A stretch of 64,000 nucleotides of DNA from Microbacterium sp. BLY (GTDB lineage: Bacteria > Actinomycetota > Actinomycetes > Actinomycetales > Microbacteriaceae), in contig NZ_JAGKSR010000001.1 of NCBI RefSeq assembly GCF_017939615.1, forward strand, positions 2,108,001-2,172,000, given 5' to 3'. The notes beneath the pieces are model-generated. The model worked only from the letters and a program-made list of their open reading frames with translations. It was not told the origin of the DNA and did no database searches. Each line of letters starts with the position of its first letter. Within the stretch, counting starts at the first letter, position 1. Made by a program: the position numbers and the translations under genes. Shown piece by piece: positions 1,420 to 20,986 of this stretch.

Positions 1420-1447
1420 GGAGCGTTTCGCCGCGTCCCCCTCTTGC

Positions 1448-1459: not shown

Positions 1460-1514
1460 TGCATGGGATGATCTGCCCGCGAGGGGGAGCAATTTCGAAA
1501 TCGGAGGGTTTCGA

Positions 1515-4123: not shown

Positions 4124-6466
4124 TCAGTCGCGAGCCAGGGCGGCGGCCAGGTGCGCCTCCAGGTCGAGGTACGCATCGTCGGCGATGTCGAACACGACCT
4201 GGGCGATGCTCCCGCCGCGGAAGTCGAACCCATACCCGTACAGGGATGACACCGGGTCCGCGCTGTCGCGTCCGATCGTCAGCCCTTCGCCGCAGAGCGA
4301 GAAGTGGCCGAGGACGGTGCGGATGCGTTTTTCGGCGACCTGATCCTCATCGATGTAGAGCCGCGCCGGTCCGACGCCCTCCCGGTACTCGCCCATGCCT
4401 TCCTTGACGAACTCGACGCCGATGATGTGCTTCCCGGAGGTCGGCGCCGGTGCCGAGATGCGATCTTCCGGGGGGATGCCGAGGAAGTTGTAGACGTAAT
4501 GCACCTGGCCGTCCTTGACCACGAGGGCGTGCCCGCCGAACCGGGAACCGTGGGCGAAGATGACCCCCTCGGTGTCGGGCGTGAACTCGACCTCGGCCGC
4601 GATCTTGAAGGAGACACCGTGGGTGTTTGCCGCGGACCGCTCGGGGACCTCGCTGGTGCCCGGATAGTAGACGAACCGGCCTGAGGGCGGCGCGGGCTGA
4701 TGGAACTCCATGCCCATGAACGTCTCGAAGTCCTTCGGGTTCCCGAGTACCTGCAGGTCGTTGAGCGGCAGGACTCCGTTGGTCTTCGCCTCCGCCATCC
4801 AGAGCGCCTTCAACTCTTCGACCTTCTCCGGATGCTCGGCGGCGAGGTTGACGGCTTCGGCGCGGTCGGCGTCGGTGTGGTAGAGCTCCCACTCGTCTTC
4901 GTCGAAGTGCCCTCTGCCGCTGACCGGGCCGTGCACGGTGACCGCCTTCCAGCCGTCGTGCCAGATCCCGCGCTGCCCGAACATCTCGTAGTACTGCGTC
5001 TCCTTCTGCGTGGGGGCGTCCGGAGCAGCGTCGAACGAGTAGGCCATCGAGACTCCCGACAGCGGCGTCTGCTCGACACCGTTGTAGACCTCGGGGAACT
5101 CGATGCCGCACGCCTCGAGGATGGTCGGCACGATGTCCGTGGAGTGGTGGTACTGGTGGCGGACCTCGCCGCGCGCCCTGATCCCCGCCGGCCAGTGGAT
5201 CACGAGAGGGTCGCAGACGCCGCCCTGGTAGGTGTACCGCTTGAACATTTTGTAGGGCGTCGAGAACGCCGCCGCCCAGCCCGTCGGATAGTGGTTGTAC
5301 GTGTCGGGCGAGCCGAGCTTGTCGACGAGGCGGAGGTTCTCGGCCTCGTCGTCCGGATATCCGCCGAAGATCTTGCCTTCATTGACCGAGCCGTTCGGGC
5401 TGCCCTCGCCCGACGCACCGTTGTCGGCGCAGTAGATGATGAGCGTGTTGTCGAGCTGACCCGACTCCTCCAGATAGTCGACGATGCGCCCGACCTGGGC
5501 GTCGGTGTACTCGCTGAACCCGGCATACACCTCCGCCATGCGCGAGAACATGGCCTTCTCGTCGTCGTTCAGCGAGTCCCACGGACGCACCGCGTCCGTC
5601 GACGTGTACGTGCCCTCCGGCATCGGGTTGAGCGCGGTGAGCTCCGTGCCCTCGGGGACGATCTCCCTCTCGATCATCCGGGCGAGGACCCATTCGCGGT
5701 ACGCCTCATAGCCGTCGTCGAACACGCCCTTGTACCGATCGATGTACTCCTGTGGCGCGTGGTGCGGCGCGTGGTTCGCTCCCGGGCAGAACCAGAGGTA
5801 CCAGGGCTTGTCCGGCTCGGTCTGCTTGACGTCTCGGATCATCGAGAGGGCCTGGTCCGCGAGATCCTTCGAGAGGTGGTACCCGTCCTCGGGAAGGGAC
5901 GGCTGGTCGATGTAGTGGTTGTCCTCGGCGAGGGAGGGATACCAGTTGTTCGTCTCACCCCCGATGAAGCCGTAGAAGCGGTCGTAACCCTGCGCCAGCG
6001 GCCAGTGTTTCTTGGAGGCGCCGGCCGTCCACTCGTCGATCGGGACGTTGTGGTTCTTGCCCACCCAGAACGTCGACCATCCGGCGTCGCGGAGGACATG
6101 GGCCATGGTCGCGTTCGAGTCGGGGATGTGGGAGTTGTACCCCGGGAAGCCCGTTGATGACTCGGAGATCGTGGCGAAACCGTTCAGGTGGTGGTTGCGT
6201 CCGGTGAGGAAGGTCGACCGGGTCGGGGAGCACAACGCCGTCGTGTGCCATTGCGAGTAGGTGAGGCCGTTCTCCGCGAGTCGATCCATGGTCGGCATCC
6301 GGATGCGTCCGCCATAGGGCGACCATGCCGCCATCCCGGTGTCGTCGTACAGGACGACGAGGACGTTGGGTGCGCCCTCCCGCGGCTTCGCGGGGAGGAA
6401 GGCCTCCCAGTCCGCCTCCGAGTCGCGCACGTCGAGTTCGATCCTGCCGTGGAAGTCGCGGGTCAT
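4124..6466 (-). CDS. arylsulfatase, formylglycine-dependent (type I), first of two paralogs
   Basis: A 780-residue sulfatase of the large actinobacterial/AtsA type that hydrolyses sulfate esters. The formylglycine signature CSPTRSTFLTGRNHH has its Cys at residue 79; metal-binding segments LYDDTG and YCADNGASGEG are present. The last ~170 residues form a beta-rich lectin-like module (FAHGSRFGGHALVVKDGQVH) typical of this subfamily. No signal peptide is seen, so it is probably cytosolic, with esters imported first. The start at 6466 is chosen because AAGGAG sits 6 bases upstream; an ATG two codons earlier overlaps that site. It is closely similar along its whole length to the sulfatase at 13923-16256. 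The Cys needs conversion by the formylglycine-generating enzyme encoded at 16354. Confidence 0.93.
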   Translation of the reverse strand: MTRDFHGRIELDVRDSEADWEAFLPAKPREGAPNVLVVLYDDTGMAAWSPYGGRIRMPTMDRLAENGLTYSQWHTTALCSPTRSTFLTGRNHHLNGFATISESSTGFPGYNSHIPDSNATMAHVLRDAGWSTFWVGKNHNVPIDEWTAGASKKHWPLAQGYDRFYGFIGGETNNWYPSLAEDNHYIDQPSLPEDGYHLSKDLADQALSMIRDVKQTEPDKPWYLWFCPGANHAPHHAPQEYIDRYKGVFDDGYEAYREWVLARMIEREIVPEGTELTALNPMPEGTYTSTDAVRPWDSLNDDEKAMFSRMAEVYAGFSEYTDAQVGRIVDYLEESGQLDNTLIIYCADNGASGEGSPNGSVNEGKIFGGYPDDEAENLRLVDKLGSPDTYNHYPTGWAAAFSTPYKMFKRYTYQGGVCDPLVIHWPAGIRARGEVRHQYHHSTDIVPTILEACGIEFPEVYNGVEQTPLSGVSMAYSFDAAPDAPTQKETQYYEMFGQRGIWHDGWKAVTVHGPVSGRGHFDEDEWELYHTDADRAEAVNLAAEHPEKVEELKALWMAEAKTNGVLPLNDLQVLGNPKDFETFMGMEFHQPAPPSGRFVYYPGTSEVPERSAANTHGVSFKIAAEVEFTPDTEGVIFAHGSRFGGHALVVKDGQVHYVYNFLGIPPEDRISAPAPTSGKHIIGVEFVKEGMGEYREGVGPARLYIDEDQVAEKRIRTVLGHFSLCGEGLTIGRDSADPVSSLYGYGFDFRGGSIAQVVFDIADDAYLDLEAHLAAALARD

Positions 6467-6504
6467 GTCCATCTCCTTCGTTTCTGCCGAAGCACCTTGC
6501 CCGC

Positions 6505-6510
6505 ACAGTA
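6505..6510 (-). promoter_or_regulatory. possible -10 box of the first sulfatase gene
   Basis: On the minus strand TACTGT lies 38 bases upstream of the chosen start; a weak -35 (GAGACG) lies 17 bases further upstream. Confidence 0.3.
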
Positions 6511-6595
6511 CTGCCGTGCCTCAGTGGCGTCTCGGACGACCCCTACGGCTCATCCGGGTGATTTTGGGCGGGTGCCGGATGGCGAGGACGCGACG

Positions 6596-7312
6596 TCAGA
6601 CGAGGGCGGTGGCGCCCTTCTCCAGCTGCAGCACCCCGATGACGAGGAGCATCGCCGCGTTCAGAACGTGGGTGTTCCCGACCATCCAGCGACGAAGCCG
6701 GTCCAAGGCCGGCTGCGCGTTCACGCCCCGTGCGACCACATAGAGCACCGGCGCGGCGATCGGGAGAGCCCCGAGAATGACGAAGGCGGCTGAGACTGCG
6801 ACCGTGGCGGTGACGCCGATGTCGGCCAGCGAGATGTCGAGCGCGGCGATGACAGCCCACGACGCGTCGACCGGGTTGAGGGCGAAGAGGGTGAGCCCGA
6901 GGAAATAGGTCCGGACCGGTCGAAACGCCTCGACCGAGTGCAACCAGCCGGGAAGCTGCGGTGCGGCGGCGACGACCTCGCGTGGTGAGGAGGCGTCCGC
7001 CATCGCGGAGAGGCGCGCCCGACCTCGGCGGTACACCCAGATCGCAGCGACGGTGAGGAAGAAACCGAGGATCAGACGGACGAGGGGGACCCAGAGCGGC
7101 GGTTCGAACTGAGTGTGGACGGAGGCCGCCCGGAACAGCCAGAGGAAGAGGAACAGAAGCCCGCCGAGCCCGGTGAGCCATCCGAGCAGATAGGCGATGC
7201 CGTTCCGGCGTGCGCGTCGGGAGACCAGCACGGCCACGAGCGCCATGATGGCGAGCGGACTCAGCACGACCCCGAGGACCACGGGGATGAGCGAGACGAT
7301 GAGGTCTCCCAT
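6596..7312 (-). CDS. GAP/Sap-family (SfLAP-type) membrane protein
   Basis: A 238-residue protein with about six hydrophobic helices, opening MGDLIVSLIPVVLGVVLSPL and carrying LFALNPVDASW between membrane segments. This matches the GAP family, named after mycobacterial Gap (glycopeptidolipid-addressing) and Sap (sulfolipid-1-addressing) proteins implicated in lipid translocation. It is the last gene of a minus-strand run SulP - GAP - GAP, 42 bases after the second GAP gene. The actual substrate is not evident, and a general small-molecule exporter is equally possible. Its C-terminal half aligns by eye with the upstream GAP gene (RRWM/L-N-V--A-LLVIGV). Confidence 0.7.
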   Translation of the reverse strand: MGDLIVSLIPVVLGVVLSPLAIMALVAVLVSRRARRNGIAYLLGWLTGLGGLLFLFLWLFRAASVHTQFEPPLWVPLVRLILGFFLTVAAIWVYRRGRARLSAMADASSPREVVAAAPQLPGWLHSVEAFRPVRTYFLGLTLFALNPVDASWAVIAALDISLADIGVTATVAVSAAFVILGALPIAAPVLYVVARGVNAQPALDRLRRWMVGNTHVLNAAMLLVIGVLQLEKGATALV

Positions 7313-7354
7313 CCGTCCCTCCTTCGATCCGACTGTGCGGCGGTACTCGAGCAG

Positions 7355-8026
7355 TCAGAAGCTGCCGAGGCCCTTGCCGACCAGGGAGACCCCGATGACG
7401 AGCAGCAGGACGGCCATGATGACCGTGTTCTCGGCGGCGAGCCATCGGCGCAGCGAGTCCAGCGGTGCGCGGAGTCGGGACGCGGCGAACAGGTAGCCGA
7501 CGACGGGCAGAGCGACCGTCGATGCTCCGATCAGCGTGAAGACGCCGATGGCGAGGACGGTGGTGCTTCCGCTCAGTTCGGCACCGCCGATGTCGATGCC
7601 GGCGGCGGCGGTCAGCAGGAGGTTCTTCGGATTCACGGCGGAGAGGAGGAGGCCGAGGCCGAGGGCCGTGCCGAAGGACATCGTGTCGATCGCCTTCATC
7701 CATGCCGGCAGCACGGGCGGCTCTCCGCCCTTCGGGCGCTTCCGCCACTGGCCGATCGCCAGCGCGATCAGGAGTGCGCCGAGGATGAGTTGGATGACCC
7801 CGCGGACGGGGCGCGACGCGTCCGGATCCTCCGCGGGGAGCACCCCCGACAGCAGCGTGAAGACCGTCACCGCCACGACGATGCCCCCGACCCAGCCGAG
7901 GAGGAAGCCGACACTCGTGGCGCGGGCCTTGGGCGACAGCAGCATGAGGATCGCGGCGATGATCGGCACAGGGCTGATCGCGACGCCCACGGCGAGGGGG
8001 AGGGTCTCTCCGATGACAGCACCCAT
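7355..8026 (-). CDS. GAP/Sap-family (SfLAP-type) membrane protein, second copy
   Basis: A 223-residue, six-helix membrane protein with the same family pattern as its neighbour: N-terminal AVGVAISPVPIIAAILMLLSP, central LLLSAVNPKNLLLTAAAG, and C-terminal LRRWLAAENTVIMAVLLLVIGV. The start codon at 8026 abuts the stop codon of the SulP gene with no gap, so the two are almost certainly co-transcribed and translationally coupled. The pair of divergent paralogs behind a SulP permease suggests a membrane complex or related export tasks. Function is inferred only from the family. Confidence 0.72.
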   Translation of the reverse strand: MGAVIGETLPLAVGVAISPVPIIAAILMLLSPKARATSVGFLLGWVGGIVVAVTVFTLLSGVLPAEDPDASRPVRGVIQLILGALLIALAIGQWRKRPKGGEPPVLPAWMKAIDTMSFGTALGLGLLLSAVNPKNLLLTAAAGIDIGGAELSGSTTVLAIGVFTLIGASTVALPVVGYLFAASRLRAPLDSLRRWLAAENTVIMAVLLLVIGVSLVGKGLGSF

Positions 8027-9706
8027 TCAGGTGGCCTTCCTGCTCGGCGCCGGCGGTGCGGCGGCGGTCGGTGCGAGGTCGTTGAGGGCCGCGCGATTGG
8101 TCGCGTACACGGGCTCGTGATCGAGGAGGCCCAAGGACCGGAGGCGTCGTAGCGTGGGGGGACGGACACGGCTGAACGCCAGGGAGATCGTCTGGGAGCC
8201 GAGCCATTCCCGCAGCGCCCGGAAGCTCTCCGCGCCGGTGACATCGATGTCGGTGACCGCTTCCATGTCGATGACCACGTGGTGCACGGGACACGGACGC
8301 GCGGCCGAGACCGCGGACTTCACCGCAGCGGAGAACACGGCGCCGTTCGCGAAGAACAGGGGAGCGGCCAAGCGGACGACGATCACTCCCGGCGCGGTCG
8401 TCGTGCCGGCGGGGGCATCCTCCAGGAGAGACTCGCCGGGGTCCCCGGACGACTCGAGCACGTCGATCGCGGGGTGGGAGGCGCGCTGCGCGAGGTTGAT
8501 CAGCGCGAGCACGAAGGCCACGACGATGCCGGCGATGGAGCCGACGAACAGCGTGACGAGGAAGCAGACCGCGCCGATGACGAACTCGAAACGGTCCAGG
8601 CGCCACAGGCTGATGAACTCCCGGATGCCGAGGAGCGGGACGATGGCCACGCCGACGATCGCGCCGATCGCCGGCGATGGGATGTCGGCGAGGAGCGCGG
8701 TGCCGAACAGCAGGAGGAGCAGGGTCCCGACCGCGAGCACGAGCGAGGGCAGTTGCGTGCGAGAACCGGCCTGGTCCATCGCCGCTGTGCGGGAGGTGGA
8801 GGAGCCGACGGCGAAACTGCCCTGAGCGCCGGCCGCCGCGTTCGCGAGGCCGAGGGCGAGGAGGTCACGATTCGCGCGGAACGGATATCGGTGCTTCTCC
8901 GCGTATGACCGGGACACGAGGAGGCCCTCCGCTGTCGTCACCAGCGTGAGGGCGATCGCGGAGGGGACGAGAGCGATCCACAGGGACCAGTCGATGATCG
9001 GCCAGGTGAGCGCAGGAGGCCCGGCCGGCACCGCGCCGAGCACGGCGACGCCGCGATCGTCGAGCCCGGTCAGGACGACGACGACGGTCGTCGCGATCAG
9101 GACGATCAGCGCCCAGGGGACGGATCGAAGGTACCGCTGCCCGAGGGGGAGCACGGCGACGGAGACGAGGGCGAGGAGAGCGGACCAGCCGTTGAAGGTC
9201 GAGAGACCGGTGACCAACCCGATCACCTTGTCGATGAACTCCCCGCCGGAGTCGATCTTCACTCCGAGCATCTTCGCGATCTGGCTCACCATGATGTCGA
9301 GAGCCAGTCCGCCCACGAATCCGACGAGGATCGGTTGGGACAGGAAGTTCGCCAGGAATCCCAGGCGGAAGACGGCGAGCAGGACGAACATGCCGCCGCA
9401 GAGGATCGCCTGGGCGAGGGCGAGTGTCGCGTAGTCGGCGCTCCCGGCGACGGCCAGACCGCCGAGCGACGACGCCACGAGCGCCGCAGCCGCCGCATCC
9501 GGCGAGGCGACGAGCTGGCGCGACGAGACGACCAGGGCGTAGACGATCGTCGGGACGATCAGGGCGTACAGGCCGGCGGTCGCGGGAAGGCCGGCGATCT
9601 GCGCGTACCCGATGTTGAGAGGGATCGCGATCGCCAGGAGGGTGACACCCGCGGTGAGTTCGGTGGCGATGGTGCGCCGGGTGAGGCCCGCGAGCGGACG
9701 CGACAT
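8027..9706 (-). CDS. SulP-family anion (sulfate/bicarbonate) transporter with STAS domain
   Basis: A 559-residue inner-membrane permease. The N-terminal half has the SulP hallmark helices (AIAIPLNIGYAQIAGLPATAGLYALIVPTI and LGLANAAAGAQGSFAVGSSTSRTAAM), and the last ~130 residues are a STAS domain (PVHHVVIDMEAVTDIDVTGAESFRAL). Length is normal for the family. The ATG at 9706 is chosen because AAGGGAGA lies 5-6 bases upstream; the frame is open 70 codons further but that stretch is Arg/Pro-rich and non-conserved in appearance. It heads the SulP-GAP-GAP transcription unit. Near two sulfatases a sulfate role is likely, but SulP proteins also carry bicarbonate and dicarboxylates. Confidence 0.88.
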   Translation of the reverse strand: MSRPLAGLTRRTIATELTAGVTLLAIAIPLNIGYAQIAGLPATAGLYALIVPTIVYALVVSSRQLVASPDAAAAALVASSLGGLAVAGSADYATLALAQAILCGGMFVLLAVFRLGFLANFLSQPILVGFVGGLALDIMVSQIAKMLGVKIDSGGEFIDKVIGLVTGLSTFNGWSALLALVSVAVLPLGQRYLRSVPWALIVLIATTVVVVLTGLDDRGVAVLGAVPAGPPALTWPIIDWSLWIALVPSAIALTLVTTAEGLLVSRSYAEKHRYPFRANRDLLALGLANAAAGAQGSFAVGSSTSRTAAMDQAGSRTQLPSLVLAVGTLLLLLFGTALLADIPSPAIGAIVGVAIVPLLGIREFISLWRLDRFEFVIGAVCFLVTLFVGSIAGIVVAFVLALINLAQRASHPAIDVLESSGDPGESLLEDAPAGTTTAPGVIVVRLAAPLFFANGAVFSAAVKSAVSAARPCPVHHVVIDMEAVTDIDVTGAESFRALREWLGSQTISLAFSRVRPPTLRRLRSLGLLDHEPVYATNRAALNDLAPTAAAPPAPSRKAT

Positions 9707-9836
9707 GCCGTCTCCCTTCGTGAACCCGGATCGTGCTCCCGGTTCACGATGGCATCGCCGCGCGCTCGCGAACAGAGCCGGAGAGAACCTCGCCCTGGTG
9801 ATATCGGCCGGCAGAAACGCCGTGGCGATGCCCGGG

Positions 9837-11000
9837 TCAGCGTCGGAGGGGACGCCGTCGGGAGTGCGCCGTCGGGTGGTCGGCGACCGGAGGGGCGGGA
9901 CGAGCCGTCCGATCACCGCTCACCCAGCGCACCCAGGCGGATCCCGGATCGCCCTCGAGGACCACGGCGCGGACGAGCAGGGTCAGGGGGATGGAGAGGA
10001 TCGCCCCCAGCGGGCCGATCACGAACGTCCAGAAGATGACCGAGAAGAAGCTCAGGGTCAGGCTCAGATCGACCGCGTCGCTGACGAACTTGGGCTGGAC
10101 GAGCACCTGGAGCACGACGTTGACCACGCAGTACACCGCGATCACCCCCAGCAGCAGCGGCCAGCCTCCGATCACGAAGGCGAGGATCGCCGGCGGGACG
10201 AGGCCGAGGATGAAGCCGATGTTCGGGATGAAGTTCGTCACGAACGCGAGAATCGCCCACACCAGCGGCGCCGGCACGCCCATCCACCACAGCGCGAGCC
10301 CATCGATGATCGCGACGACCGCCCCGAAGACGGCGTTCACGACGTAATACCGTCGGACCCCCGTCTGCAGACGTGTGACGCGCTCGATGACCGACCCGTG
10401 GGTCGCGCCGAAGAGCGTGCGCGCCTGCCCGTATCGAGCGGCGTCCGCCGCGAGGAAGATGATGTACGCGCAGACGAAGAACAGGGCGGTGGCCACCGCC
10501 AGAACCGTGCTGCCCAGGCTGCCGACGATTCCGAGAAGAGTCTCCGGATCGAGGATCGAGCCGGCCGCGTCCGCGGCTTCCTGATCCAGTCCCAGCGACT
10601 GGAGCCAGGCGACCACCTGATCGGCGGTCCGCAGCAACTCGTCCTGGGAGGCGAGGTCTCCGACGAGCCGGGCGAACTGCGCGCCGGCCAGCCAGAGGAG
10701 TCCTGCCATCGCCAGGAGGATCACGTAGGCGAGCACGATCACCGCCGTCGTCCCGATCCACGGGTGCCAGCCCGGACGCTGGAACGGTCGGCGAAGCGGC
10801 TCGCAGATCACGACGGTCACGATCGCCAGCACGAGCGGGCCGACCACGTCGCGGGCGAGGTAGACACCGCCGAGCGTGATCGTCGCGGCGGCGAGCATCA
10901 ACAGCACGCGCAGGGAAGGCGGCAGGAGAGGAGCGCCGGGGACGGAGGGAGACGATGTCTGCGCGGTCACGCGCTCAGCGTAGTCAGTCGACTCATTCAT
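9837..11000 (-). CDS. AI-2E family transporter (TqsA/PerM-like membrane protein)
   Basis: A 387-residue protein with paired N-terminal helices, a soluble middle part (about residues 105-155), and a C-terminal helix bundle with the family signature FIPNIGFILGLVPPAILAF followed by VVLQVLVQPKFVSDAVDLS. Despite the name, family members are diverse and include Na+/H+ antiporters and exporters, so the substrate is open. It is divergent from the truncated regulator gene, with a 59-base shared upstream region, and 130 bases separate it from the downstream SulP gene. The C-terminal ~25 residues are Arg/Pro-rich and probably cytosolic. Confidence 0.82.
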   Translation of the reverse strand: MNESTDYAERVTAQTSSPSVPGAPLLPPSLRVLLMLAAATITLGGVYLARDVVGPLVLAIVTVVICEPLRRPFQRPGWHPWIGTTAVIVLAYVILLAMAGLLWLAGAQFARLVGDLASQDELLRTADQVVAWLQSLGLDQEAADAAGSILDPETLLGIVGSLGSTVLAVATALFFVCAYIIFLAADAARYGQARTLFGATHGSVIERVTRLQTGVRRYYVVNAVFGAVVAIIDGLALWWMGVPAPLVWAILAFVTNFIPNIGFILGLVPPAILAFVIGGWPLLLGVIAVYCVVNVVLQVLVQPKFVSDAVDLSLTLSFFSVIFWTFVIGPLGAILSIPLTLLVRAVVLEGDPGSAWVRWVSGDRTARPAPPVADHPTAHSRRRPLRR

Positions 11001-11047
11001 CCGGGTGATTGGTGCTCGGGCCCTCCCGAGGACGGGAACCGCCTGGC

Positions 11048-11053
11048 TACCGT
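11048..11053 (+). promoter_or_regulatory. -10 box of a probably leaderless transcript
   Basis: TACCGT ends 6 bases before the ATG at 11060, and no ribosome binding site lies between. This spacing places the transcription start at or beside the start codon. Confidence 0.45.
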
Positions 11054-11059
11054 TGTCGC

Positions 11060-12106
11060 ATGTCGAGATCTGAGCGGTCGCCGGCGCTCAGCGTCGGACC
11101 GCGCTTCCGAGCGCCGCGGCCGTCCTTCCGCCCCGTCCGGCGGGAGCGCGTCACGGCGGCGATCACGGCGGCCGTCGAGACCGATGGAGTGACGGTCGTC
11201 AGCGCACCGAGCGGGTTCGGGAAGACCACCGCGGTCGCGGCATGGGCGGCGAAGCGCGACGACGTCGTCTGGCTGACACTCAGGGACGCGGATGCCGATG
11301 CCGTCCGCCTCGCCGAGGATGTGCTGCAGGCCCTGGGCCTCGCCGATGACGAGCACGCGGACGCGTCGCCTAATCCGCTGGCACCCGCAGCGGCATATTC
11401 GAGGATCTGCGCGACGTTGCGGTCCGCAGGTGCTCCCGTGCACCTGGTCGTCGACGATGCGCATCGTGCGGGACCGGCCTGGCGCGACGGCGTGCTGGGC
11501 ATGCTCGCGGAGTGGCCTCCGGACGGCCTGCGCCTCCTCCTCGTCGGTGCGCCCCCTCTCCACGCCTCGCTGCCGAGGCTGCGGCTGACCAACCCCGGGG
11601 CCTTCGTCGGCGCTGATGTGCTCGCCTTCGACCGGACGGAGGCGACGCGTCTCAGCGCCCGGGCGGGCCTCGATGGTGACGCGCTCCTCGCCGAGACGGG
11701 CCGGTGGCCCATCGCCATCGGCGCCGTGGTGAGGGCCACGGGAACGGTCGACAGCACGGCGGCGCTGCGAGGCTACATCAGCGAGCACGTCCTGGCCTCG
11801 CTGCCCCGGCACCTGTCCGAGTTCGTGCTGGACGCCACCGTCTGCACCGAGATCACCCCGCAGACAGCGGCGGTCGTCGCCGAACGCGACGATGCCCCGG
11901 AACTGCTGGAGAGCTGCGTGCGGCTCGGGATCTTCCTGGACCGCTTCGAGGGCGCCGAGGGTCCCCTCTACCGCTGGCACCCGGTCTTCGCGCGGCAGTG
12001 CTCCGAACTCGTCCGCGCCGATGCGCCGAGGTTCACGGCGCTCAGGACCTCGCGGCGAGCGGCGGCTCCGTCCTCCGCAGCGAACGCGTCCCTGCGCCGG
12101 TCGTGA
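11060..12106 (+). CDS. truncated MalT-like LuxR regulator (ATPase part only)
   Basis: A 348-residue protein that corresponds to the first third of MalT-type regulators. It has a Walker A (APSGFGKT), a Walker B-like LVVDDAHRAG, and the winged-helix section ending YRWHPVFARQCSELVRADAPRFTAL. After that point similarity to the intact regulator at 1515-4100 (which continues ...ALHRCAADWFAAQG) breaks off into a low-complexity Ser/Ala/Arg tail. The TPR-like region and the LuxR DNA-binding domain are missing. The breakpoint lies at about 12040-12050, where another reading frame becomes the conserved-looking end of a different gene. It is therefore probably a decaying gene; it may still give a soluble ATPase fragment. 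Confidence 0.65.
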   Translation: MSRSERSPALSVGPRFRAPRPSFRPVRRERVTAAITAAVETDGVTVVSAPSGFGKTTAVAAWAAKRDDVVWLTLRDADADAVRLAEDVLQALGLADDEHADASPNPLAPAAAYSRICATLRSAGAPVHLVVDDAHRAGPAWRDGVLGMLAEWPPDGLRLLLVGAPPLHASLPRLRLTNPGAFVGADVLAFDRTEATRLSARAGLDGDALLAETGRWPIAIGAVVRATGTVDSTAALRGYISEHVLASLPRHLSEFVLDATVCTEITPQTAAVVAERDDAPELLESCVRLGIFLDRFEGAEGPLYRWHPVFARQCSELVRADAPRFTALRTSRRAAAPSSAANASLRRS

Positions 12107-12144
12107 ACGCGATGGTCGACATCCTCGAACAGGAAGGTGCATGA
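12040..12144 (+). pseudogene. remnant: last ~34 codons of a DUF6325-like gene
   Basis: In the frame +1 relative to the truncated regulator, the stretch reads DLAASGGSVLRSERVPAPVV and ends ...VDILEQEGA at a TGA at 12142. This resembles, from memory, the C-terminus of actinobacterial DUF6325 proteins, which often precede a SHOCT-domain gene, exactly as here. No start codon or N-terminal domain precedes it; the preceding bases encode the regulator. I infer that a deletion joined the two genes. Confidence 0.4.
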
Positions 12145-12145
12145 C

Positions 12146-12466
12146 ATGCCCATGGGAAGATTCGGACGACCGGGCCTGATCGGGCTCGCCGTCCGCACGG
12201 CGGTCGTCGCCGGTACCGCTTCGGCCGTGCAGGGAGCGTCGATGCGCCATCAGCAGCGGCGTGCGCAGAACGAGTACGAGCAGCAGCAGTACGAGGCAGC
12301 CCAACAGCAGGCGCAGATGGCCATGGCCGCCCCGCAGACTCCGGTCACGGCGAGCGCACCGGAGGACGACATGGTCGCCCAGCTGCAGCAACTGGCGGCG
12401 CTGCGGTCCAGCGGCGTGCTCACGGAGGAGGAGTTCGCCGCCGCCAAGCAGAAGCTGCTGGGCTGA
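12146..12466 (+). CDS. SHOCT-domain protein
   Basis: A 106-residue protein. It opens with a short hydrophobic stretch (LIGLAVRTAVVAGTASAV), followed by a Gln-rich coiled segment (QQRRAQNEYEQQQYEAAQQQAQ) region and a C-terminal SHOCT motif (QLQQLAALRSSGVLTEEEFA), a short domain often found at protein termini. ATG 12146 is used because AGGAAGG lies about 8 bases upstream; a GTG three codons earlier is also in frame. It sits one base after the DUF6325-like remnant and 4 bases before the next gene, so it forms an operon with the membrane protein that follows. Function unknown. Confidence 0.75.
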   Translation: MPMGRFGRPGLIGLAVRTAVVAGTASAVQGASMRHQQRRAQNEYEQQQYEAAQQQAQMAMAAPQTPVTASAPEDDMVAQLQQLAALRSSGVLTEEEFAAAKQKLLG

Positions 12467-12470
12467 CGCG

Positions 12471-13844
12471 ATGGCGCACGCGGAGATCCCCGGAAGCGAA
12501 CTGGAGGAGCTGCGCGCCCGTGTGCTTCTCCTCGAGCGGGAGAACGCGGCACTGCAGCAGCCGCGCCGGCGGTCGCGGACTCGCAGCATCGCCGCAGGAG
12601 CGGTGCTCGTCCTGGCCGTCCTGATGGCGCCGATCGCCGCGGTGGGTACATGGGCCCGGCTGGAACTCGTCGACACCGAGCGGTTCGTCGCCACCTTCGC
12701 CCCGTTGGCGCAGGATCCGGACGTCCAGGACCTCGTCGCGGACGAGGTGACGGCCGCCATCGACGAGAAGGTGGACGTCGACGCCGTGGTGGGGGATCTG
12801 TTCGACGGCATCCGCACCCTCGACCTCCCTCCGAGGGCGGAATCCGCTCTGACGCTGTTGCAGGGACCGGCCGCGAGCGGCCTGTCGTCGCTGATCGACC
12901 GGGTCGTGCGACAGGTCGTCGCCTCCCCGCAGTTCGCCGACATCTGGGAGCAGTCGCTCCGTGTCGCGCATGAGCGGGCGACCGCGATCCTGGAGGGGGA
13001 GCCGGGCACGGCGTTGCAACTCGGAGAGGACGGCGTCCTCTCCCTCGACGTCGGTATCGTGATCGACAGGGTCCAGGCCGTGCTCGTCGAGAACGGGGTG
13101 GGCATCGCCGATCTGATCCCCGACGTCGACCGCACCATCCCGATCGTCCAGTCCGACTCCCTGGCCTCCGTGCGGGTGCTGTATCAGGTCGCCGCCGTCG
13201 CCGGGTTCTGGCTGCCCTGGGTCGTGCTCGGTCTGGTCGCGGCCGGCGTGCTGCTCGCCCGTGATCGGCCGCGAGCGATGCGGCGGACGGCGGCGGGGCT
13301 GACAGTCGTGTTCCTCGTCGTCGCCGGGGCGATCAGCGTCGGGCGCTTCTTCTTCGTCGGTGCGGTCAGCCCTTCCGTCATGTCGGCCGCCGCCGCCCAA
13401 TCCGTGTTCGACCAGGTGACGGCCGTCCTGAGCTCGACGATGATCGCTCTCGCGTTCGCCGCGGTGCTCATCGGAATCTGGGCGTGGCTCGCCGGAAGCG
13501 GCCGCAGCGCATCCGCTGTGCGCCGAGCAGCCGATGACGCGTTCGGCTGGGTGCGGACGGCGGGGGAGCGGCACGGTCTTTCGACCGGCCGCTTCGGTCG
13601 GAGCGTCCACCGCTATCGGGGGGCGATCCTCATCGTCGGCATGACCGTCGCGTTGCTCGCGCTCGTCGCGACCAGGCCGGTGACCGCGGGAGCGGTACTC
13701 GCCGCCGCGGTGGGGCTGGCGGTGCTGGCGCTCCTGGTCGGGCTCCTCGAGCGTCCCGAGGAGGACGAGGAGGAAATCGCGCACGGCTCGACGTCGGAGA
13801 CGGCGACGACGTCGGAGCGCGCGGCGGTCACCCCGCCCGGGTGA
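12471..13844 (+). CDS. large membrane protein of unknown function
   Basis: A 457-residue protein. Residues 10-35 form a short coiled coil (ELEELRARVLLLERENAAL), followed by a helix, then an exported domain of about 170 residues rich in acidic positions (VDTERFVATFAPLAQDPDVQ onward). Three to four further membrane helices follow (about residues 245-340), then two more near 395-440 and an acidic tail. The layout (anchor, extracytoplasmic domain with paired RF/VA repeats, helix bundle) is common in actinobacterial proteins annotated as hypothetical membrane proteins. It starts 4 bases after the SHOCT gene stop and is probably co-translated. Function unknown. Confidence 0.7.
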   Translation: MAHAEIPGSELEELRARVLLLERENAALQQPRRRSRTRSIAAGAVLVLAVLMAPIAAVGTWARLELVDTERFVATFAPLAQDPDVQDLVADEVTAAIDEKVDVDAVVGDLFDGIRTLDLPPRAESALTLLQGPAASGLSSLIDRVVRQVVASPQFADIWEQSLRVAHERATAILEGEPGTALQLGEDGVLSLDVGIVIDRVQAVLVENGVGIADLIPDVDRTIPIVQSDSLASVRVLYQVAAVAGFWLPWVVLGLVAAGVLLARDRPRAMRRTAAGLTVVFLVVAGAISVGRFFFVGAVSPSVMSAAAAQSVFDQVTAVLSSTMIALAFAAVLIGIWAWLAGSGRSASAVRRAADDAFGWVRTAGERHGLSTGRFGRSVHRYRGAILIVGMTVALLALVATRPVTAGAVLAAAVGLAVLALLVGLLERPEEDEEEIAHGSTSETATTSERAAVTPPG

Positions 13845-13922
13845 CGCGGTGCGGAGTTCCCGCGCGGGATCTCGCAGACTCAGCGAGCGGGGCGGAGCTC
13901 CGCTGTGAACGAAGGAGACAAG

Positions 13923-16256
13923 ATGTCGGAACTGAACGCGAACTTCCGCGGAGAGATCTCGCTCGATGTCCGTGACTCGCGCCCCGATTGGTCGGAGTAC
14001 GAGTTGCCGAAGGCGCCGGACGGCGCCCCGAACATCCTGGTGGTGCTCTACGACGACACGGGGTTGGCATCGTGGTCACCGTACGGGGGGCGCATCAACA
14101 TGCCGACGTTGGATCGACTCGCGCGTGACGGTCTGACCTACACCCAGTGGCACACCACAGCGCTGTGCTCGCCCACTCGGTCGACCATGCTCACCGGCCG
14201 GAACCACCACGTGAATCGCGCGGGCGTGATCATGGAAGGGACGAACGGCTTCCCCGGATTCGCCGGATGTCTGCCGGCGGAGTGCGCCACGATCGGTCAG
14301 GTCCTCCAGCAGAACGGCTACTCCACGTTCTGGCTCGGCAAGAACCACAACGTCCCGGAAGAGGACGTCGCGCCGGGTGGCGATCGCTCCATGTGGCCGC
14401 TTCAGCTGGGATTCGACCGGTTCTACGGCTTCCTCGGAGGCGAGACCAACAACTGGTACCCCGATCTCGTCGAGGACAACCACTTCATCGAGCCGCCGGC
14501 GACCCCCGAGGAGGGGTACCACCTCTCCCAGGACCTCGCCGATCAGGCGCTCGGCATGATCCGCGACCAGCAGGCCTCCAACCCCTCCAAGCCCTGGTAC
14601 ATGTGGTTCTGCCCGGGGGCGAACCACGCTCCGCACCACGCTCCGCAGGAGTACATCGACAAGTACAAGGGCATGTTCGACGACGGGTACGACGCGTATC
14701 GGGAGTGGGTGCTCGCGCGCATGATCGAGAGGGGCGTCCTCCCGGCCGACACGCAGATGACGCCGCTCAACCCCCTTCCGGAGGATGTCGCGAACCCCGC
14801 CGACTACGTGCGCCCGTGGGCCGAGCTGAACGAGGACGAGAGGCGACTGTTCTCGCGGATGGCCGAGGTGTTCGCCGGATTCTCGGAGTACACCGACGCG
14901 CAGATCGGACGGGTCATCGACTACCTCGAGGAGTCCGGACAGCTCGAGAACACGATCGTGTTCTACTGCGCGGACAACGGCGCCTCCGGCGAGGGCACTC
15001 CCGACGGCTCCGTCAACGAGAACAAGTTCTTCAACGGCTACCCGGATGACCTCTCCGAGAATCTGGCGATGATCGACCGCCTCGGTTCGGTCGACACCTA
15101 CAACCACTATCCGACGGGATGGGCCGCGGCCTTCTCCACGCCGTTCCAGATGTTCAAGCGCTACTCCCAGTTCGCCGGGGGCACCTGCGACCCCCTGGTG
15201 GTCCACTGGCCGAAGGGGATCGCCGCGAAGGGCGAACTGCGCCACCAGTACCACCACTCGGTCGACATCGTCGCGACGGTGCTCGACGTGATCGGGGTCG
15301 AGATGCCCGAGACGTTCCGCGGGGTGCCGCAGCGCCCGCTCGACGGTGTGTCCATGAAGTACAGCTTCGATGCGCCCGCGGACGGACCGACCGAGAAGAG
15401 GATCCAGTACTACTCGATGCTCGGGACGCGGGGCATCTGGAAGGACGGCTGGAAGGCTGCCGCCGTCCACGCACCGCTCAGCGGCAAGGGCCACTTCGAG
15501 GATGACGTCTGGGAGCTGTACCACGTCGCGGAGGATCGGTCGGAGTCGAACAACCTGGCGGAGAGCCACCCCGAGAAGCTGCAGGAGCTGATCGCGGACT
15601 GGTTCGCCGAGGCGGAGAAGAACTTCGTCCTGCCGCTGGACGACCGCTCCGCGCGCGAGATCCTCACAGTGGAACGGCCGCAGGCCGAGCCTGTCCGCGA
15701 TCGGTACGTCTACTATCCGGGCACCGTCGCGGTGCCGGAGAGCGTCGCGGCGAACGTGCGCGGGCGGTCGTACAAGATCATCGCGGACGTCGTGCTGGAG
15801 GAGGGGACGGAGGGCGTCATCTTCGCTCACGGCTCGCGCTTCGGCGGTCACTCGCTGTTCATCAAGGACAATCGCCTCACGTACGTCTACAACTTCCTGG
15901 GCGTGCAGCCGGAGCAGACCTTCGTCTCGGACGAGCTCACGCCGGGACCGCACACCCTCGGCGTGGAGTTCGCCCGGGAGGGGGCCGGCGAGCACGGCGA
16001 GTCTCTCGGAACAGCGACCCTGTATGTCGACGACCAGCCGGTGAGCAGCGGTCCGATGCGTGCGCAGGTCGGGAAGTTCTCGCTCGGAGGGGACGGGCTG
16101 TGCGTGGGATGGGACAGCGCTGATCCGGTGAGTCGTCAGTACAGCAACCCGTTCCCGTTCCGAGGTGGCAAGCTTCTCGGTGTGGCCGTCGATGTCAGCG
16201 CGGAGCGGTACATCGATCTCGAACTCGAGGCTGCGGCGATGCTTGCTCGCGAGTGA
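13923..16256 (+). CDS. arylsulfatase, formylglycine-dependent (type I), second paralog
   Basis: A 777-residue sulfate-ester hydrolase with the activation signature CSPTRSTMLTGRNHH (Cys at residue 82), the metal-binding segments LYDDTG and YCADNGASGEG, and the C-terminal lectin-like module (FAHGSRFGGHSLFIKDNRLT). It parallels the sulfatase at 4124-6466 nearly end to end, so one is likely a duplication of the other, with different substrate specificity. The ATG at 13923 has GAAGGAG 6 bases upstream; the GTG six codons earlier would lack one. A 17-bp hairpin follows, then the formylglycine-generating enzyme gene on the same strand. No signal peptide is visible. Confidence 0.93.
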   Translation: MSELNANFRGEISLDVRDSRPDWSEYELPKAPDGAPNILVVLYDDTGLASWSPYGGRINMPTLDRLARDGLTYTQWHTTALCSPTRSTMLTGRNHHVNRAGVIMEGTNGFPGFAGCLPAECATIGQVLQQNGYSTFWLGKNHNVPEEDVAPGGDRSMWPLQLGFDRFYGFLGGETNNWYPDLVEDNHFIEPPATPEEGYHLSQDLADQALGMIRDQQASNPSKPWYMWFCPGANHAPHHAPQEYIDKYKGMFDDGYDAYREWVLARMIERGVLPADTQMTPLNPLPEDVANPADYVRPWAELNEDERRLFSRMAEVFAGFSEYTDAQIGRVIDYLEESGQLENTIVFYCADNGASGEGTPDGSVNENKFFNGYPDDLSENLAMIDRLGSVDTYNHYPTGWAAAFSTPFQMFKRYSQFAGGTCDPLVVHWPKGIAAKGELRHQYHHSVDIVATVLDVIGVEMPETFRGVPQRPLDGVSMKYSFDAPADGPTEKRIQYYSMLGTRGIWKDGWKAAAVHAPLSGKGHFEDDVWELYHVAEDRSESNNLAESHPEKLQELIADWFAEAEKNFVLPLDDRSAREILTVERPQAEPVRDRYVYYPGTVAVPESVAANVRGRSYKIIADVVLEEGTEGVIFAHGSRFGGHSLFIKDNRLTYVYNFLGVQPEQTFVSDELTPGPHTLGVEFAREGAGEHGESLGTATLYVDDQPVSSGPMRAQVGKFSLGGDGLCVGWDSADPVSRQYSNPFPFRGGKLLGVAVDVSAERYIDLELEAAAMLARE

Positions 16257-16261
16257 GGAAT

Positions 16262-16307
16262 GCGCAGCGGCGCCGGGATGAGGCTTCTCGTCCCGGCGCC
16301 GCTGCGC
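16262..16307 (+). terminator. strong hairpin between sulfatase and its maturase gene
   Basis: A perfect 17-bp inverted repeat (GCGCAGCGGCGCCGGGA at 16262-16278; complement at 16291-16307) with a 12-base loop. It begins 5 bases after the sulfatase stop. It has no T-tract. It could end or attenuate sulfatase transcription ahead of the maturase gene. Confidence 0.6.
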
Positions 16308-16353
16308 GGACGAGGTAGTGGGCGACGGAAACGCGGCAGGAAGGTGGACGACG

Positions 16354-17238
16354 ATGATCGAGATCCCCGGGGGCACCCTTCTCATGGGTTCGGACGAGTT
16401 CTATCCCGAGGAGGGTCCCGTCCACGAACGCACCGTCGACGGATTCTCCCTGGATGAGCATCCCGTGACGAACCGGGAGTTCGCCGCCTTCGTCGCGGAC
16501 ACGGGATACGTCACCGTCGCCGAGCGGCCGATGGACCCCGCCGACTACCCGGGTGTGCACCCCGACGACCTCGTCCCGGGGGCGATGGTGTTCACACCCA
16601 CCCGCGGACCCGTCGATCTGCGTGATTGGCGGCAGTGGTGGCGCTGGGAGCCGGGGGCATTCTGGCGCCGCCCCTTCGGGCCGGCGTCGTCGATCGACGA
16701 CCGCCTCGACCATCCGGTGGTCCAGATCGCCTACCCGGATGCCGCCGCCTACGCGGCGTGGGCAGGCAAGCGGCTGCCGACCGAGGCGGAATGGGAATGG
16801 GCGGCGCGCGGTGGGCTGATCGGCGCGCGGTTCGCCTGGGGAGACGAGACGAGGCCGGGCGGTGCCGTCATGGCGGACACCTGGCAGGGAGCCTTCCCCT
16901 ACCGGAACGACGGCGCCGGCGGATGGGTCGGCACCGCACCGGTGGGGTCCTTCCCCGCGAACGGTTACGGTCTGCGGGACATGATCGGCAACGTCTGGGA
17001 ATGGACGGCGGACTACTGGACGCACCGGCACGTGCTGCCGGGTGCCGTGGGCGTGGAGGCGGGACACCGCGCGAGCCTGCTGTCGTCCGAGCCTGGATCG
17101 CCCATTCCGCGCCGGGTGCTCAAGGGCGGGTCGCACCTCTGCGCGCCCGAATACTGCCTGCGGTATCGCCCGGCCGCACGCTCCGCGCAGGCGGAGGACA
17201 CGGCGATGACGCACATCGGCTTCCGCTGCGCCCTCTGA
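16354..17238 (+). CDS. formylglycine-generating enzyme (sulfatase maturase)
   Basis: A 294-residue enzyme that oxidises the Cys of the CxPxR sulfatase motif to formylglycine, using O2 and copper. It has the family's opening IPGGTLLMGSDEFYPEEGP, the central KRLPTEAEWEWAARGG, GNVWEWTADY, and the C-terminal KGGSHLCAPEYCLRYRPAAR. The last holds the catalytic/copper cysteines C263 and C268, spaced five apart as in aerobic bacterial enzymes. The ATG at 16354 has AAGG about 9 bases upstream. It lies directly behind a sulfatase gene and would serve both paralogs. It fills the role of the radical-SAM maturase (AtsB), which is not seen here. Confidence 0.92.
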   Translation: MIEIPGGTLLMGSDEFYPEEGPVHERTVDGFSLDEHPVTNREFAAFVADTGYVTVAERPMDPADYPGVHPDDLVPGAMVFTPTRGPVDLRDWRQWWRWEPGAFWRRPFGPASSIDDRLDHPVVQIAYPDAAAYAAWAGKRLPTEAEWEWAARGGLIGARFAWGDETRPGGAVMADTWQGAFPYRNDGAGGWVGTAPVGSFPANGYGLRDMIGNVWEWTADYWTHRHVLPGAVGVEAGHRASLLSSEPGSPIPRRVLKGGSHLCAPEYCLRYRPAARSAQAEDTAMTHIGFRCAL

Positions 17239-17256: not shown

Positions 17257-18189
17257 TCAGGCGGGGTCGGCGAACACACTGGCCCAGTCGTCCCGGACGC
17301 TCACCACGGTGTACCCGCGGTCGCCGGCCGTGTCCAGAGCCCGCTCGGCCCCGGTGTCGTAGGGCGTGTCGTCGCGGGCCGCGTCGTCGTGATGGACCAG
17401 CAGCGCCAGCCCGCGACGAGAGCCGCCACGAGCGAAGTCGAGCATCGGGATGTCGCCGTCGGAGTTGCCGGCCGCCAGTAGCGGGCGCTGACCGATCCGG
17501 CTCCAGATCCGCACCGGCTTCTCCGGTCCGTCGTCGAAGAACGCCAGGGCAGACGAGTAGCGGACACTGGCATCCTTCTCGTCGTAGGTGAGCCCCAGCG
17601 CCGAGCCGATCACCCGCTCCGGAGGAATTCCGTAGTTCGCCTGGGTCATCGGCCGCATGAAGTCGCGCTCGCCGCCCGACACGATGTAGCAGGTGAAGCC
17701 ATGGCTCTCGAGGTACCGCAGCAGCTCGACCATCGGCTGATACACGGACTGCGCGTAGGGGCGGCCGAGGAGCGGGTGCCGCGCGGAGCGATAGAACTCC
17801 GTGACCGAACGGGCGTAGTCCTCCACACTGACACCGTCGGTCAACCCCACGAGCGCCTGGATGATGACGCCGAGGTCGGAGTCGTCGCCGGCGTAGTGTC
17901 TGTCGATCGCGGTTCCGAGCCAGGCGAGGTCGCCGGTGACCGCGGCGCGGTACGGCTGCCGGGCGGCGAGCGACGGGTCGCGGGTGGCCGCCTCGCGCCA
18001 GCGCTCCACCACGTAATGCAGTTGGGTGGGCATGGGCTTCTCCGACCACAGGGTCCCGTCGTTGTCGAAGACGGCGATGCGTTCGTCCACGGGGACGGCG
18101 TCCGGCCCCTCGGTCGCGGCGACGACGAAAGCCTCGACGGTGCGGCGTGTGGCGGTGTCCCGCCAGGAAGACAGCGGTGAAGACTGCAT
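17257..18189 (-). CDS. HAD-superfamily phosphatase
   Basis: A 310-residue hydrolase with all four HAD motifs: I, VFDNDGTLWSEK (nucleophile Asp near residue 41); II, YIVSGGERDF; the motif III lysine probably in the segment after ALGLTYDEKD; and IV, AAGNSDGDIPML. Spacing suggests a C1 cap, as in phosphoserine-phosphatase-like members. The substrate is unknown. It converges with the formylglycine-generating enzyme gene (18-base gap) and is divergent from the copper operon, so its own promoter overlaps the copper operators. No signal peptide was found. Confidence 0.8.
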   Translation of the reverse strand: MQSSPLSSWRDTATRRTVEAFVVAATEGPDAVPVDERIAVFDNDGTLWSEKPMPTQLHYVVERWREAATRDPSLAARQPYRAAVTGDLAWLGTAIDRHYAGDDSDLGVIIQALVGLTDGVSVEDYARSVTEFYRSARHPLLGRPYAQSVYQPMVELLRYLESHGFTCYIVSGGERDFMRPMTQANYGIPPERVIGSALGLTYDEKDASVRYSSALAFFDDGPEKPVRIWSRIGQRPLLAAGNSDGDIPMLDFARGGSRRGLALLVHHDDAARDDTPYDTGAERALDTAGDRGYTVVSVRDDWASVFADPA

Positions 18190-18275
18190 GACTGTGATCT
18201 TCGCAGGTGCGACCGACGATCTTCAGCCCTCTTCACCCGCCGCAGAGGAGCCCGCCGGCGACGGGAGATGCGGGA

Positions 18276-18327
18276 ATACCCGCGGAGGGTATAGGGTTGA
18301 GCCGAAGGTATACCCCAGGGGGGTATC
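18276..18327. promoter_or_regulatory. two CsoR-like copper operators
   Basis: Two GC-palindromes typical of the copper sensor CsoR lie upstream of the copper operon. Site A is ATACCC at 18276-18281 and GGGTAT at 18287-18292. Site B is TATACCCC at 18309-18316 and GGGGTATC at 18320-18327. Their centres are about 34 bases (three helical turns) apart. Site B ends 17 bases before the chaperone start. No csoR gene is in the window. Confidence 0.75.
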
Positions 18328-18344
18328 CCGAGAAAGGAATCACG

Positions 18345-18553
18345 ATGAGCACCACCGAGTACCAGGTCACCGGAATGAGCTGCAGCCACTGCGAGATGGC
18401 GATCCGCGACGAGGTGTCGCGCATTCCCGGTGTCGAGGGTATCGACGTCAGTGCGCAGAGCGGGAAGCTCGTGGTGCAGAGCTCCGCACCCGTCGATGAG
18501 GGCGCCGTGCTGGCCGCCGTCGATGAGGCGGGATACCAGGCGGTCAGGGCCTG

Positions 18554-18554
<1 letters not shown>
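18345..18554 (+). CDS. copZ: CopZ-like copper chaperone (HMA domain)
   Basis: A 69-residue heavy-metal-associated domain with the copper-binding GMSCSHC motif (Cys residues 13 and 16), which would carry Cu(I) in the cytosol and pass it to the ATPase encoded next. ATG 18345 has AAAGGA about 7 bases upstream. Its stop overlaps the next start (TGATG), so chaperone and pump are translationally coupled. Repression by CsoR and release by Cu(I) is expected from the two upstream operators. Confidence 0.9.
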
Positions 18555-20809
<2,255 letters not shown>

Positions 20810-20832
20810 ACGAACGACAGAGGAGCACCGAC

Positions 20833-20919: not shown

Positions 20920-20927
20920 GCGCCCAC

Positions 20928-20962: not shown

Positions 20963-20986
20963 CAGCATCGACGTTGGAGGGAAGAC

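Follow-up and report, generated by a model that had tools for sequence, protein, structure and literature searches.

Two type I sulfatases, a predicted maturase, and two SulP transporters in a Microbacterium genome without detected sulfate assimilation families

Genes of the locus

The left part of the window (the whole 64,000-nucleotide stretch of Microbacterium sp. BLY DNA that was analyzed) carries two sulfatase genes, S1 and S2, amid genes for transporters, regulators, and a formylglycine-generating enzyme (FGE) (Table 1). As originally predicted, a SulP-STAS protein, two GAP/Sap (SfLAP) proteins, and the FGE share the region with both sulfatases, all with Pfam matches above the gathering score. 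Three points go beyond that prediction: a second SulP gene (SulP2; contig C1, ~2106645-2108330) crosses the left window edge, its last ~330 nt lying in the window at 1-333; a HAD hydrolase gene is present at 17257-18189; and 11009-12106 encodes a truncated regulator (365 aa, versus 851-865 aa for the MalT-type regulator of relatives). The SHOCT gene and the adjoining membrane protein gene (12468..13844) also occur as a pair in the relatives G029, G060, G077, G040, and L008.

Table 1. Features at the sulfatase locus (window coordinates)
Feature	Position	Strand	Remark
SulP2, 3' end (protein ~562 aa)	1..333	+	remainder left of the window
FUSC_2-type membrane protein (aromatic-efflux-like)	436..1419	+	retained in Microbacterium block
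MalT-like LuxR regulator	1416..4100	+	AAA, GerE; MalT-type TPR below cutoff; convergent with S1
Sulfatase S1, 782 aa	4124..6472	-	Pfam Sulfatase 208 bits (above gathering score); CSPTR (C81)
SfLAP (GAP/Sap) membrane protein 1	6596..7312	-	Pfam SfLAP above gathering score
SfLAP (GAP/Sap) membrane protein 2	7355..8026	-	Pfam SfLAP above gathering score
SulP-STAS anion transporter	8027..9916	-	Pfam Sulfate_transp and STAS
AI-2E family transporter	9837..11000	-	family match
Truncated MalT-type regulator, 365 aa	11009..12106	+	without TPR and HTH
SHOCT protein	12137..12466	+	family match
Membrane protein without Pfam match	12468..13844	+	adjoins SHOCT
Sulfatase S2, 783 aa	13905..16256	+	Pfam Sulfatase 207 bits (above gathering score); separate old clade
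Formylglycine-generating enzyme (FGE), 306 aa	16318..17238	+	Pfam FGE-sulfatase; catalytic Cys pair C275/C280
HAD hydrolase (4ovy-like)	17257..18189	-	found in 34/80 related loci (best 80 of 273)
CopZ, CopA, CopB copper genes	18207..23140	+	syntenic in G029; rarely close to sulfatases elsewhere

The sulfatases and their predicted maturase

The S1 and S2 proteins align with 480 of 782 residues identical (61%; 75% positives; BLASTP E value of 0), confirming that they are paralogs along their whole length. Their genes are 68% identical when codon aligned and 71% identical over 2174 columns by blastn; third codon positions are 55% identical, with an NG86 dS of ~0.9. In a sulfatase tree (109 of 115 sequences, with identical or X-rich rows left out; quick search without bootstrap), S1 and S2 fall into separate clades, each spanning phyla. 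Because each groups with sequences from other genera, we rejected recent duplication or whole-gene conversion as their origin; the highest identity reached in any sliding 150-nt window is 0.85. Judged by sequence, S1 and S2 are paralogs that separated long ago.

The two genes are opposed across a gap of 7.4 kb (~7.5 kb in the original prediction), and a repeat finder detects the pair as an inverted repeat whose four longest arms measure 73 to 391 nt at 75 to 79% identity. The suggestion that recombination between them could flip the intervening segment did not hold up, because the longest exact stretch common to both genes is 21 nt and the locus has a single orientation in seven relatives (L004/G029, L006/G040, and L069/G060, each pair counted once, plus L005, L008, L009, and G077), in three of which S2 or a piece of it is in view. 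Neither long near-identical inverted repeats nor alternative orientations, by which an invertible DNA segment is recognized, were found in the assembled sequences compared. Tandem as well as divergent sulfatase layouts exist in other loci.

Both proteins contain the maturation motif CSPTR (CxPxR), whose residues (C81, S82, P83, T84, and R85 in S1) are invariant across 44 sequences, S1 and S2 included. D43, D44, R85, K139, H141, H234, D350, N351, and K411 are likewise invariant in this set, and S2 aligns with P. aeruginosa AtsA at the latter's metal and catalytic residues; we take these AtsA-type residues to function in metal binding and catalysis. The S1 model (pLDDT 84), the only one of the pair to which the fold comparison applies, has an alkaline-phosphatase-like sulfatase fold, with AtsA and 7all as best matches. 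It resembles AtsA (1hdh) over residues 33 to 568 (Z 42.6; rmsd 2.4 Å; 484 aligned), and S1 and S2 have the CxPxR motif and the metal and catalytic residues in common with AtsA; differences from AtsA are the overall sequence (29 to 30% identity) and an extra C-terminal jelly-roll domain of ~190 aa that follows the AtsA match. AtsA, the best solved Foldseek match of S1, is placed in SulfAtlas subfamily S1_4 (Table 1 of PMC5066984). By motif and residues, S1 and S2 are type I (formylglycine, or FGly; S1) sulfatases, with FGly formation and ester cleavage as predicted activities.

Taken alone, the C-terminal jelly-roll domain of S1 (~599-762) resembles NanB (2vw1; Z 13.0; rmsd 3.2; 148 aligned), neurexin LNS2 (Z 12.6), and the CBM40 of R. 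gnavus (Z 12.1 to 12.3). Its Foldseek matches to ConA-like lectin, laminin G, and CBM40 domains have E values of ~1e-5 and TM scores below 0.55; searches returned no PDB sequence match (E ≤ 1), and the best E value against Pfam was 0.039. Clostridial neurotoxin chains, which have the jelly-roll fold in common with it, are also among its fold matches. Unlike the ConA-like lectin, laminin G, and CBM40 domains, that of S1 sits on a protein without a signal peptide. S1, S2, and FGE have no hydrophobic N terminus, and the open frame upstream extends at most ~20 codons; from the lack of a signal peptide, we infer that S1 and S2 are cytosolic.

FGE scores 276.6 bits against the Pfam FGE-sulfatase domain (cutoff, 23.3). 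It matches 6s07 and 2q17, presumably the copper-dependent FGEs of T. curvata and S. coelicolor, over residues 13 to 305 of 306 (E values of 5e-71 and 7e-63), and both catalytic Cys positions of 6s07 are shared (GGSHLCAPEYC aligned with GGSFLCHESYC); comparison with these two structures found nothing departing from the family. In a search that covered maturases of the FGE type, it was the only credible FGE in the genome: a second FGE-fold protein lacks the catalytic Cys pair at the corresponding place. This result supports the earlier proposal that one maturase would serve both sulfatases. We also considered a functional copper link between CopZ/CopA/CopB and FGE and rejected it: because synteny of the Cop genes extends to G029, where the corresponding site has no FGE, and their matches lie near just 1 to 3 of 80 related loci (best 80 of 273), we regard them as chromosomal neighbors.

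Conservation and transport proteins

Within ~10 kb in the best 80 of 273 related loci (a set with some short contigs and some close relatives, such as two M. oxydans loci and two that share a single M. jejuense contig), we found SulP in 59, HAD hydrolase in 34, SfLAP in 31, and FGE in 30. SulP lies ≤10 kb from the sulfatase in 15 of the 16 genus genomes with such sulfatases (0.5 expected; uncorrected for phylogeny), so the neighborhood is conserved far beyond chance, as had been supposed. FGE and sulfatase also co-occur across genomes, as anticipated: 33 of 34 sulfatase-positive genomes have an FGE match (E ≤ 1e-15), versus 17 of 65 others (uncorrected for phylogeny). The locus is conserved and mainly actinobacterial. 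The literature matches listed included no paper on this neighborhood; a title among the references of PMC8360860 (Cregut et al. 2013) concerns arylsulfatase compartments in Streptomyces, Microbacterium, and Rhodococcus.

The comparisons do not support the self-contained unit that was first proposed, at least not as a stable one. FGE is unlinked to the sulfatases in G029, G060, G077, and G040, and the FGE described here does not group with the FGEs of close relatives and is thus of other descent; one FGE lineage likely replaced another beside conserved sulfatases. Moreover, S1 (at ≥82%) is accompanied by an intact S2-type match in only 4 of 9 genomes. The locus may be in decay, given that the regulator is truncated here and that relatives have lost S2 or carry a broken copy.

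SulP-STAS exceeds the Pfam cutoffs for Sulfate_transp (270.5 bits) and STAS (57.4 bits), the domains of SulP/SLC26 transporters such as Rv1739c, BicA, and DauA. It departs from these in scoring below the curated cutoff of NCBIfam TIGR00815 (338.4 versus 380.45 bits) and in its retention by a genome in which searches detected no sulfate assimilation families. SulP-STAS and SulP2 are the only full-length SulPs found in the genome, both beside S1, and among the best 80 of 273 related loci, the SulP2 type is the commonest SulP adjoining the sulfatase. SulPs are known for transporting inorganic anions and dicarboxylates. No sulfate-ester importer was recognized among the analyzed genes of the locus, and the idea that it imports sulfated compounds is not supported. 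The two SfLAPs match PF11139 at 99 and 156 bits (cutoff, 35), as do mycobacterial Sap and Gap; unlike in the mycobacterial setting, no sulfolipid or glycopeptidolipid gene was recognized among the analyzed neighbors. SfLAP type 2 is the more frequent, occurring in 28 of the best 80 loci (out of 273), versus 12 for type 1.

Fate of the sulfate and proposed function

Neither CysD/CysH (PF01507; controls found, 14/14) nor sulfite reductase (PF01077; controls found, 11/14) had a match in this 99.99% complete genome, and no sulfate-ABC permease scored above the cutoff. ATP sulfurylase PF01747 was not found either, a result that adds little alone because none was found in 10 genomes, three PF01507-positive ones included. 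Since these assimilatory families were not found, a role of the released sulfate as a sulfur source is unlikely for this genome, although not for the genus; the freed sulfate is probably a by-product, not food.

We consider it somewhat probable that the locus serves cytosolic desulfation of sulfate esters, with the SulPs exporting or exchanging sulfate. FGE would convert the Cys of CSPTR to formylglycine in both S1 and S2, which, as cytosolic AtsA-type enzymes, would split sulfate esters inside the cell; given their ancient split, they probably differ in substrate. The two SulPs beside S1 would carry the resulting sulfate, or another anion in exchange. Because an assimilatory pathway was not found, the payoff would be either the organic moiety left after desulfation or disposal of the ester itself, with sulfate as waste for export. 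We infer the sulfatase activity, cytosolic site, transport direction, and substrate class; what the analysis shows directly are genes, motifs, folds, linkage, co-occurrence, phylogeny, and the lack of matches to assimilatory families. Against it, characterized SulPs are mostly importers, sulfatases go together with cys genes across the genus, no ester importer was identified, and sulfate may be used by some unrecognized route. A more specific proposal is quite tentative: SulP beside FGly sulfatases in Microbacterium without assimilation might be a product exporter or a sulfate-ester/sulfate exchanger, hydrolysis driving uptake, in a carbon or detoxification pathway that is uncoupled from sulfur nutrition and was kept when cys genes were lost.

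Classical sulfur scavenging, in which freed and SulP-imported sulfate would go to cysteine and this strain either recently lost the later steps or uses an unrecognized route, is a possible but rather doubtful alternative. PF01507 is present in 19 of 34 sulfatase-positive genus genomes and 18 of 65 others (P = 0.0085, uncorrected for phylogeny), and in 7 of 7 genomes with an S1/S2-type sulfatase and PF01507, cys genes lie 14 to 71 kb from the sulfatase (the 80-kb linkage limit was chosen after the distances were seen), distances that fit a sulfur-supply origin. Levels of sulfatases and of a CysD in Rhodococcus IGTS8 were higher when dibenzothiophene rather than sulfate was the sulfur source (PMC8557817), and according to a title cited in PMC3141025, the SulP Rv1739c increases sulfate uptake by E. 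coli. However, searches found no CysD/CysH, sulfite reductase, or ATP sulfurylase here, PF01507 is missing from 9 of 16 sulfatase genomes (7 of those 9 being ≥90% complete), and the S1 and S2 genes and both SulPs are intact in this strain.

Improbable, in our view, is detoxification or efflux of aryl sulfates or sulfated antimicrobials, in which desulfation would be coupled to export by FUSC, SfLAP, and AI-2E proteins under LuxR/MalT control. The conserved Microbacterium block does hold these export-type families (FUSC_2, two SfLAPs, and AI-2E), but FUSC occurs in just 7 and AI-2E in 20 of the best 80 loci (out of 273), and the roles of FUSC, SfLAP, and AI-2E are putative. Finally, the view that common genes merely came together by chance at a recent, flippable inverted duplication, which the inverted layout and the 68% DNA identity might suggest, is hardly credible, given the old separate clades of S1 and S2, their short longest identity, linkage far above chance, the varied layouts elsewhere, and the lack of a flip in seven relatives.

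Bacterial sulfatases are often taken for sulfur scavengers. Two sulfatases, a maturase, and two SulPs in a genome where cys families were not found make a natural test of that view; if sulfate is indeed unusable here, the product under selection would be what remains of the ester. The conserved set of sulfatase, SulP, HAD hydrolase, FGE, and SfLAP offers a defined setting for asking in which direction bacterial SulPs transport.

Two sulfatases and their conserved neighborhood

The genome of Microbacterium sp. BLY (3.24 Mb in three contigs, 99.99% complete) bears out the gene positions originally predicted, as well as the paralogy of sulfatases S1 and S2, which are 61% identical along their full length. 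Both are assigned to the FGly type by Pfam, a CSPTR motif, and the catalytic residue set of AtsA; the closest relative of S1 among the matches listed is from M. algeriense (92%). In fold comparisons, the AlphaFold2 model of S1 (pLDDT 84, pTM 0.88) matched Pseudomonas aeruginosa AtsA and 7all with Z ~43. The site of S1 and S2 is predicted to be cytosolic, because no hydrophobic segment was found in either protein (nor in the formylglycine-generating enzyme [FGE] or the HAD hydrolase) and because their open frames (798 and 803 aa) extend only ~20 codons beyond the called genes.

Locations of features (window coordinates unless stated)
Feature	Position	Strand	Length or note
SulP2	C1 ~2106645-2108330		cut by window edge; end at window 1-333
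FUSC_2 aromatic-efflux-like protein	436-1419
S1	4124-6472	-	782 aa
S1 jelly-roll domain	4124-4678
SulP-STAS	8027-9916	-
Regulator	11009-12106		365 aa
Regulator and adjoining gene tail	11009-12137
SHOCT protein	12137-12466	+
SHOCT plus membrane protein	12137-13844
S2	13905-16256	+	783 aa
S2 jelly-roll domain	15700-16256
FGE	16318-17238	+
HAD hydrolase	17257-18189	-
CopZ, CopA, CopB	18207-23140
Second FGE-fold protein	C1:2480741-2481358

Residues 599 to 762 of S1 are modeled as an additional all-beta domain. Modeled by itself (pLDDT 88), it resembles ConA-like, LamG, and CBM40 jelly rolls (Z up to 13; Foldseek E ~1e-5); searches found no PDB sequence at E ≤ 1 and nothing in Pfam better than E 0.039. 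A conserved jelly roll of this kind ends both paralogs, so that a domain without a Pfam family sits on a sulfatase without a signal peptide.

We searched for the window's proteins in the available sequence, up to 10 kb on either side of 80 related sulfatase loci (the best 80 of 273). A SulP of either type lay near the sulfatase in 59 of the 80, at a median distance of <1 kb where present; HAD was found in 34, SfLAP in 31, FGE in 30, MalT/LuxR in 23, and AI-2E in 20, versus 0 to 2 for each of seven control ORFs from elsewhere in the window. SulP, HAD, SfLAP, and FGE were all missing in 14 of these best 80. In 15 of the 16 genus genomes that carry an S1/S2-type sulfatase, a SulP lies no more than 10 kb from it (0.5 expected), so the neighborhood is conserved as predicted. 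The commonest SulP beside these sulfatases is not the one first noticed but SulP2, at the window's left edge (54 versus 31 of the best 80 loci); both full-length SulPs detected in the genome flank S1. Flanked by SulP2 and the LuxR regulator, the FUSC_2 protein is kept in the Microbacterium block; in relatives' blocks, the SHOCT protein stays paired with a membrane protein that has no Pfam match.

The maturase

A sulfatase at E ≤ 1e-60 occurs in 34 of the 99 genus genomes surveyed. FGE matches (E ≤ 1e-15) accompany it in 33 genomes, all but G023 (83% complete), and occur in 17 of the 65 others (Fisher p 1.7e-12). Both catalytic cysteines, C275 and C280, are present in the window's FGE, and the single other FGE-fold match in the genome lacks the pair in the sequence examined. 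Thus, if FGE acts at all, one maturase must serve both sulfatases, as had been proposed.

The window's tail-to-tail arrangement of FGE and HAD close to a sulfatase recurs in genomes G028, G052, G049, G065, G034, and G013; in G071 the two are head to head. The adjacency therefore predates the window's locus. Genome G029 is syntenic with the window from SulP2 to CopB (S1 92%, S2 86%), but no FGE lies in the 96 bp that separate S2 from HAD; its FGE is on a different contig. Phylogenetic analysis of 49 FGEs groups the enzymes of G029, G060, G077, G040, and locus L041 in a clade (100/98) nested in a 25-row Microbacterium/Leucobacter clade (100/98), outside which the window's FGE falls. The sulfatases are thus inherited together, whereas the adjacent maturase has a different descent and is likely a replacement.

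FGE is a copper enzyme. CopZ, CopA, and CopB adjoin FGE in the window and are syntenic in G029 despite its lack of FGE there; their matches lie near just 1 to 3 of the best 80 of 273 sulfatase loci.

Age, orientation, and state of the locus

A quick, non-bootstrapped phylogeny of 109 sulfatases from the loci and regions retrieved places S1 and S2 in separate multiphylum clades, each with SH-aLRT 99: 67 rows from Actinomycetota and Pseudomonadota, and 28 from Actinomycetota, Acidobacteriota, and Chloroflexota, respectively. Their divergence is therefore old. The suggestion that the inverted copies could flip the intervening segment found no support: their longest exact identity is 21 nt, and the S1-side block has the same orientation in seven relatives (S2 or a fragment is visible in three of the seven). 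Linked pairs elsewhere are both divergent (G029, G028, L008, and L043) and tandem (G049, L019, L021, and L030), and in Agromyces mediolanus JCM 3346 the two genes are on separate contigs (L015 and L070); the inverted layout is therefore incidental. An Acidobacteria MAG (L083, 7601-18644) carries four tandem superfamily sulfatases, of which two are S2-type and the others more distantly related.

Although conserved, the locus is not static. Only the N-terminal AAA part of the MalT-type regulator remains (365 aa); among the loci and regions retrieved, nine homologous ORFs (some being one contig counted twice) encode 851 to 865 aa. Directly after it, in a different frame, is the tail of a gene which in G029 ends beside and upstream of the SHOCT gene; this junction points to a probable deletion of ~3 kb. 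Among nine genus genomes with S1 at ≥82%, four have an intact S2-type match (G000, G028, G029, and G049); G077 has no S2 between its usual neighbors, and in G040 S2 is broken at a contig end.

Sulfur context and proposed role

The window's genome had no match to PF01507 (CysD, CysH), PF01077 (sulfite/nitrite reductase), or PF01747 (ATP-sulfurylase), which were detected at the same threshold in 14, 11, and 5 of 14 controls, respectively; no sulfate-ABC permease exceeded the TIGR00969 cutoff, which just 3 of 14 controls pass. PF01507 occurs in 37 of the 99 genus genomes (19 of 34 sulfatase-positive versus 18 of 65 sulfatase-negative; p 0.0085). Where an S1/S2-type sulfatase is present (16 genomes), 7 genomes have PF01507 and 9 lack it (two of them incomplete); in all seven with both, it lies on the same contig, 14 to 71 kb from the closest such sulfatase. 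The sulfatase/SulP locus likely arose near cys genes, which one branch then lost while keeping the locus.

What we observed comprises genes, motifs, folds, linkage, co-occurrence, phylogeny, and the assimilatory families not detected. In the mechanism we propose, a sulfate ester would enter the cell (the analyzed genes of the locus included no recognized ester importer), FGE-activated S1 and S2 would cleave it in the cytosol, SulP would export or exchange the sulfate, and the organic part would be used or exported. In relatives carrying cys genes, the locus likely serves sulfur scavenging instead. Among the papers listed in our literature search, which covers few subscription journals, none dealt with this neighborhood. 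Its parts are ordinary and their arrangement is conserved; what is unusual is its persistence where sulfate assimilation families were not detected.
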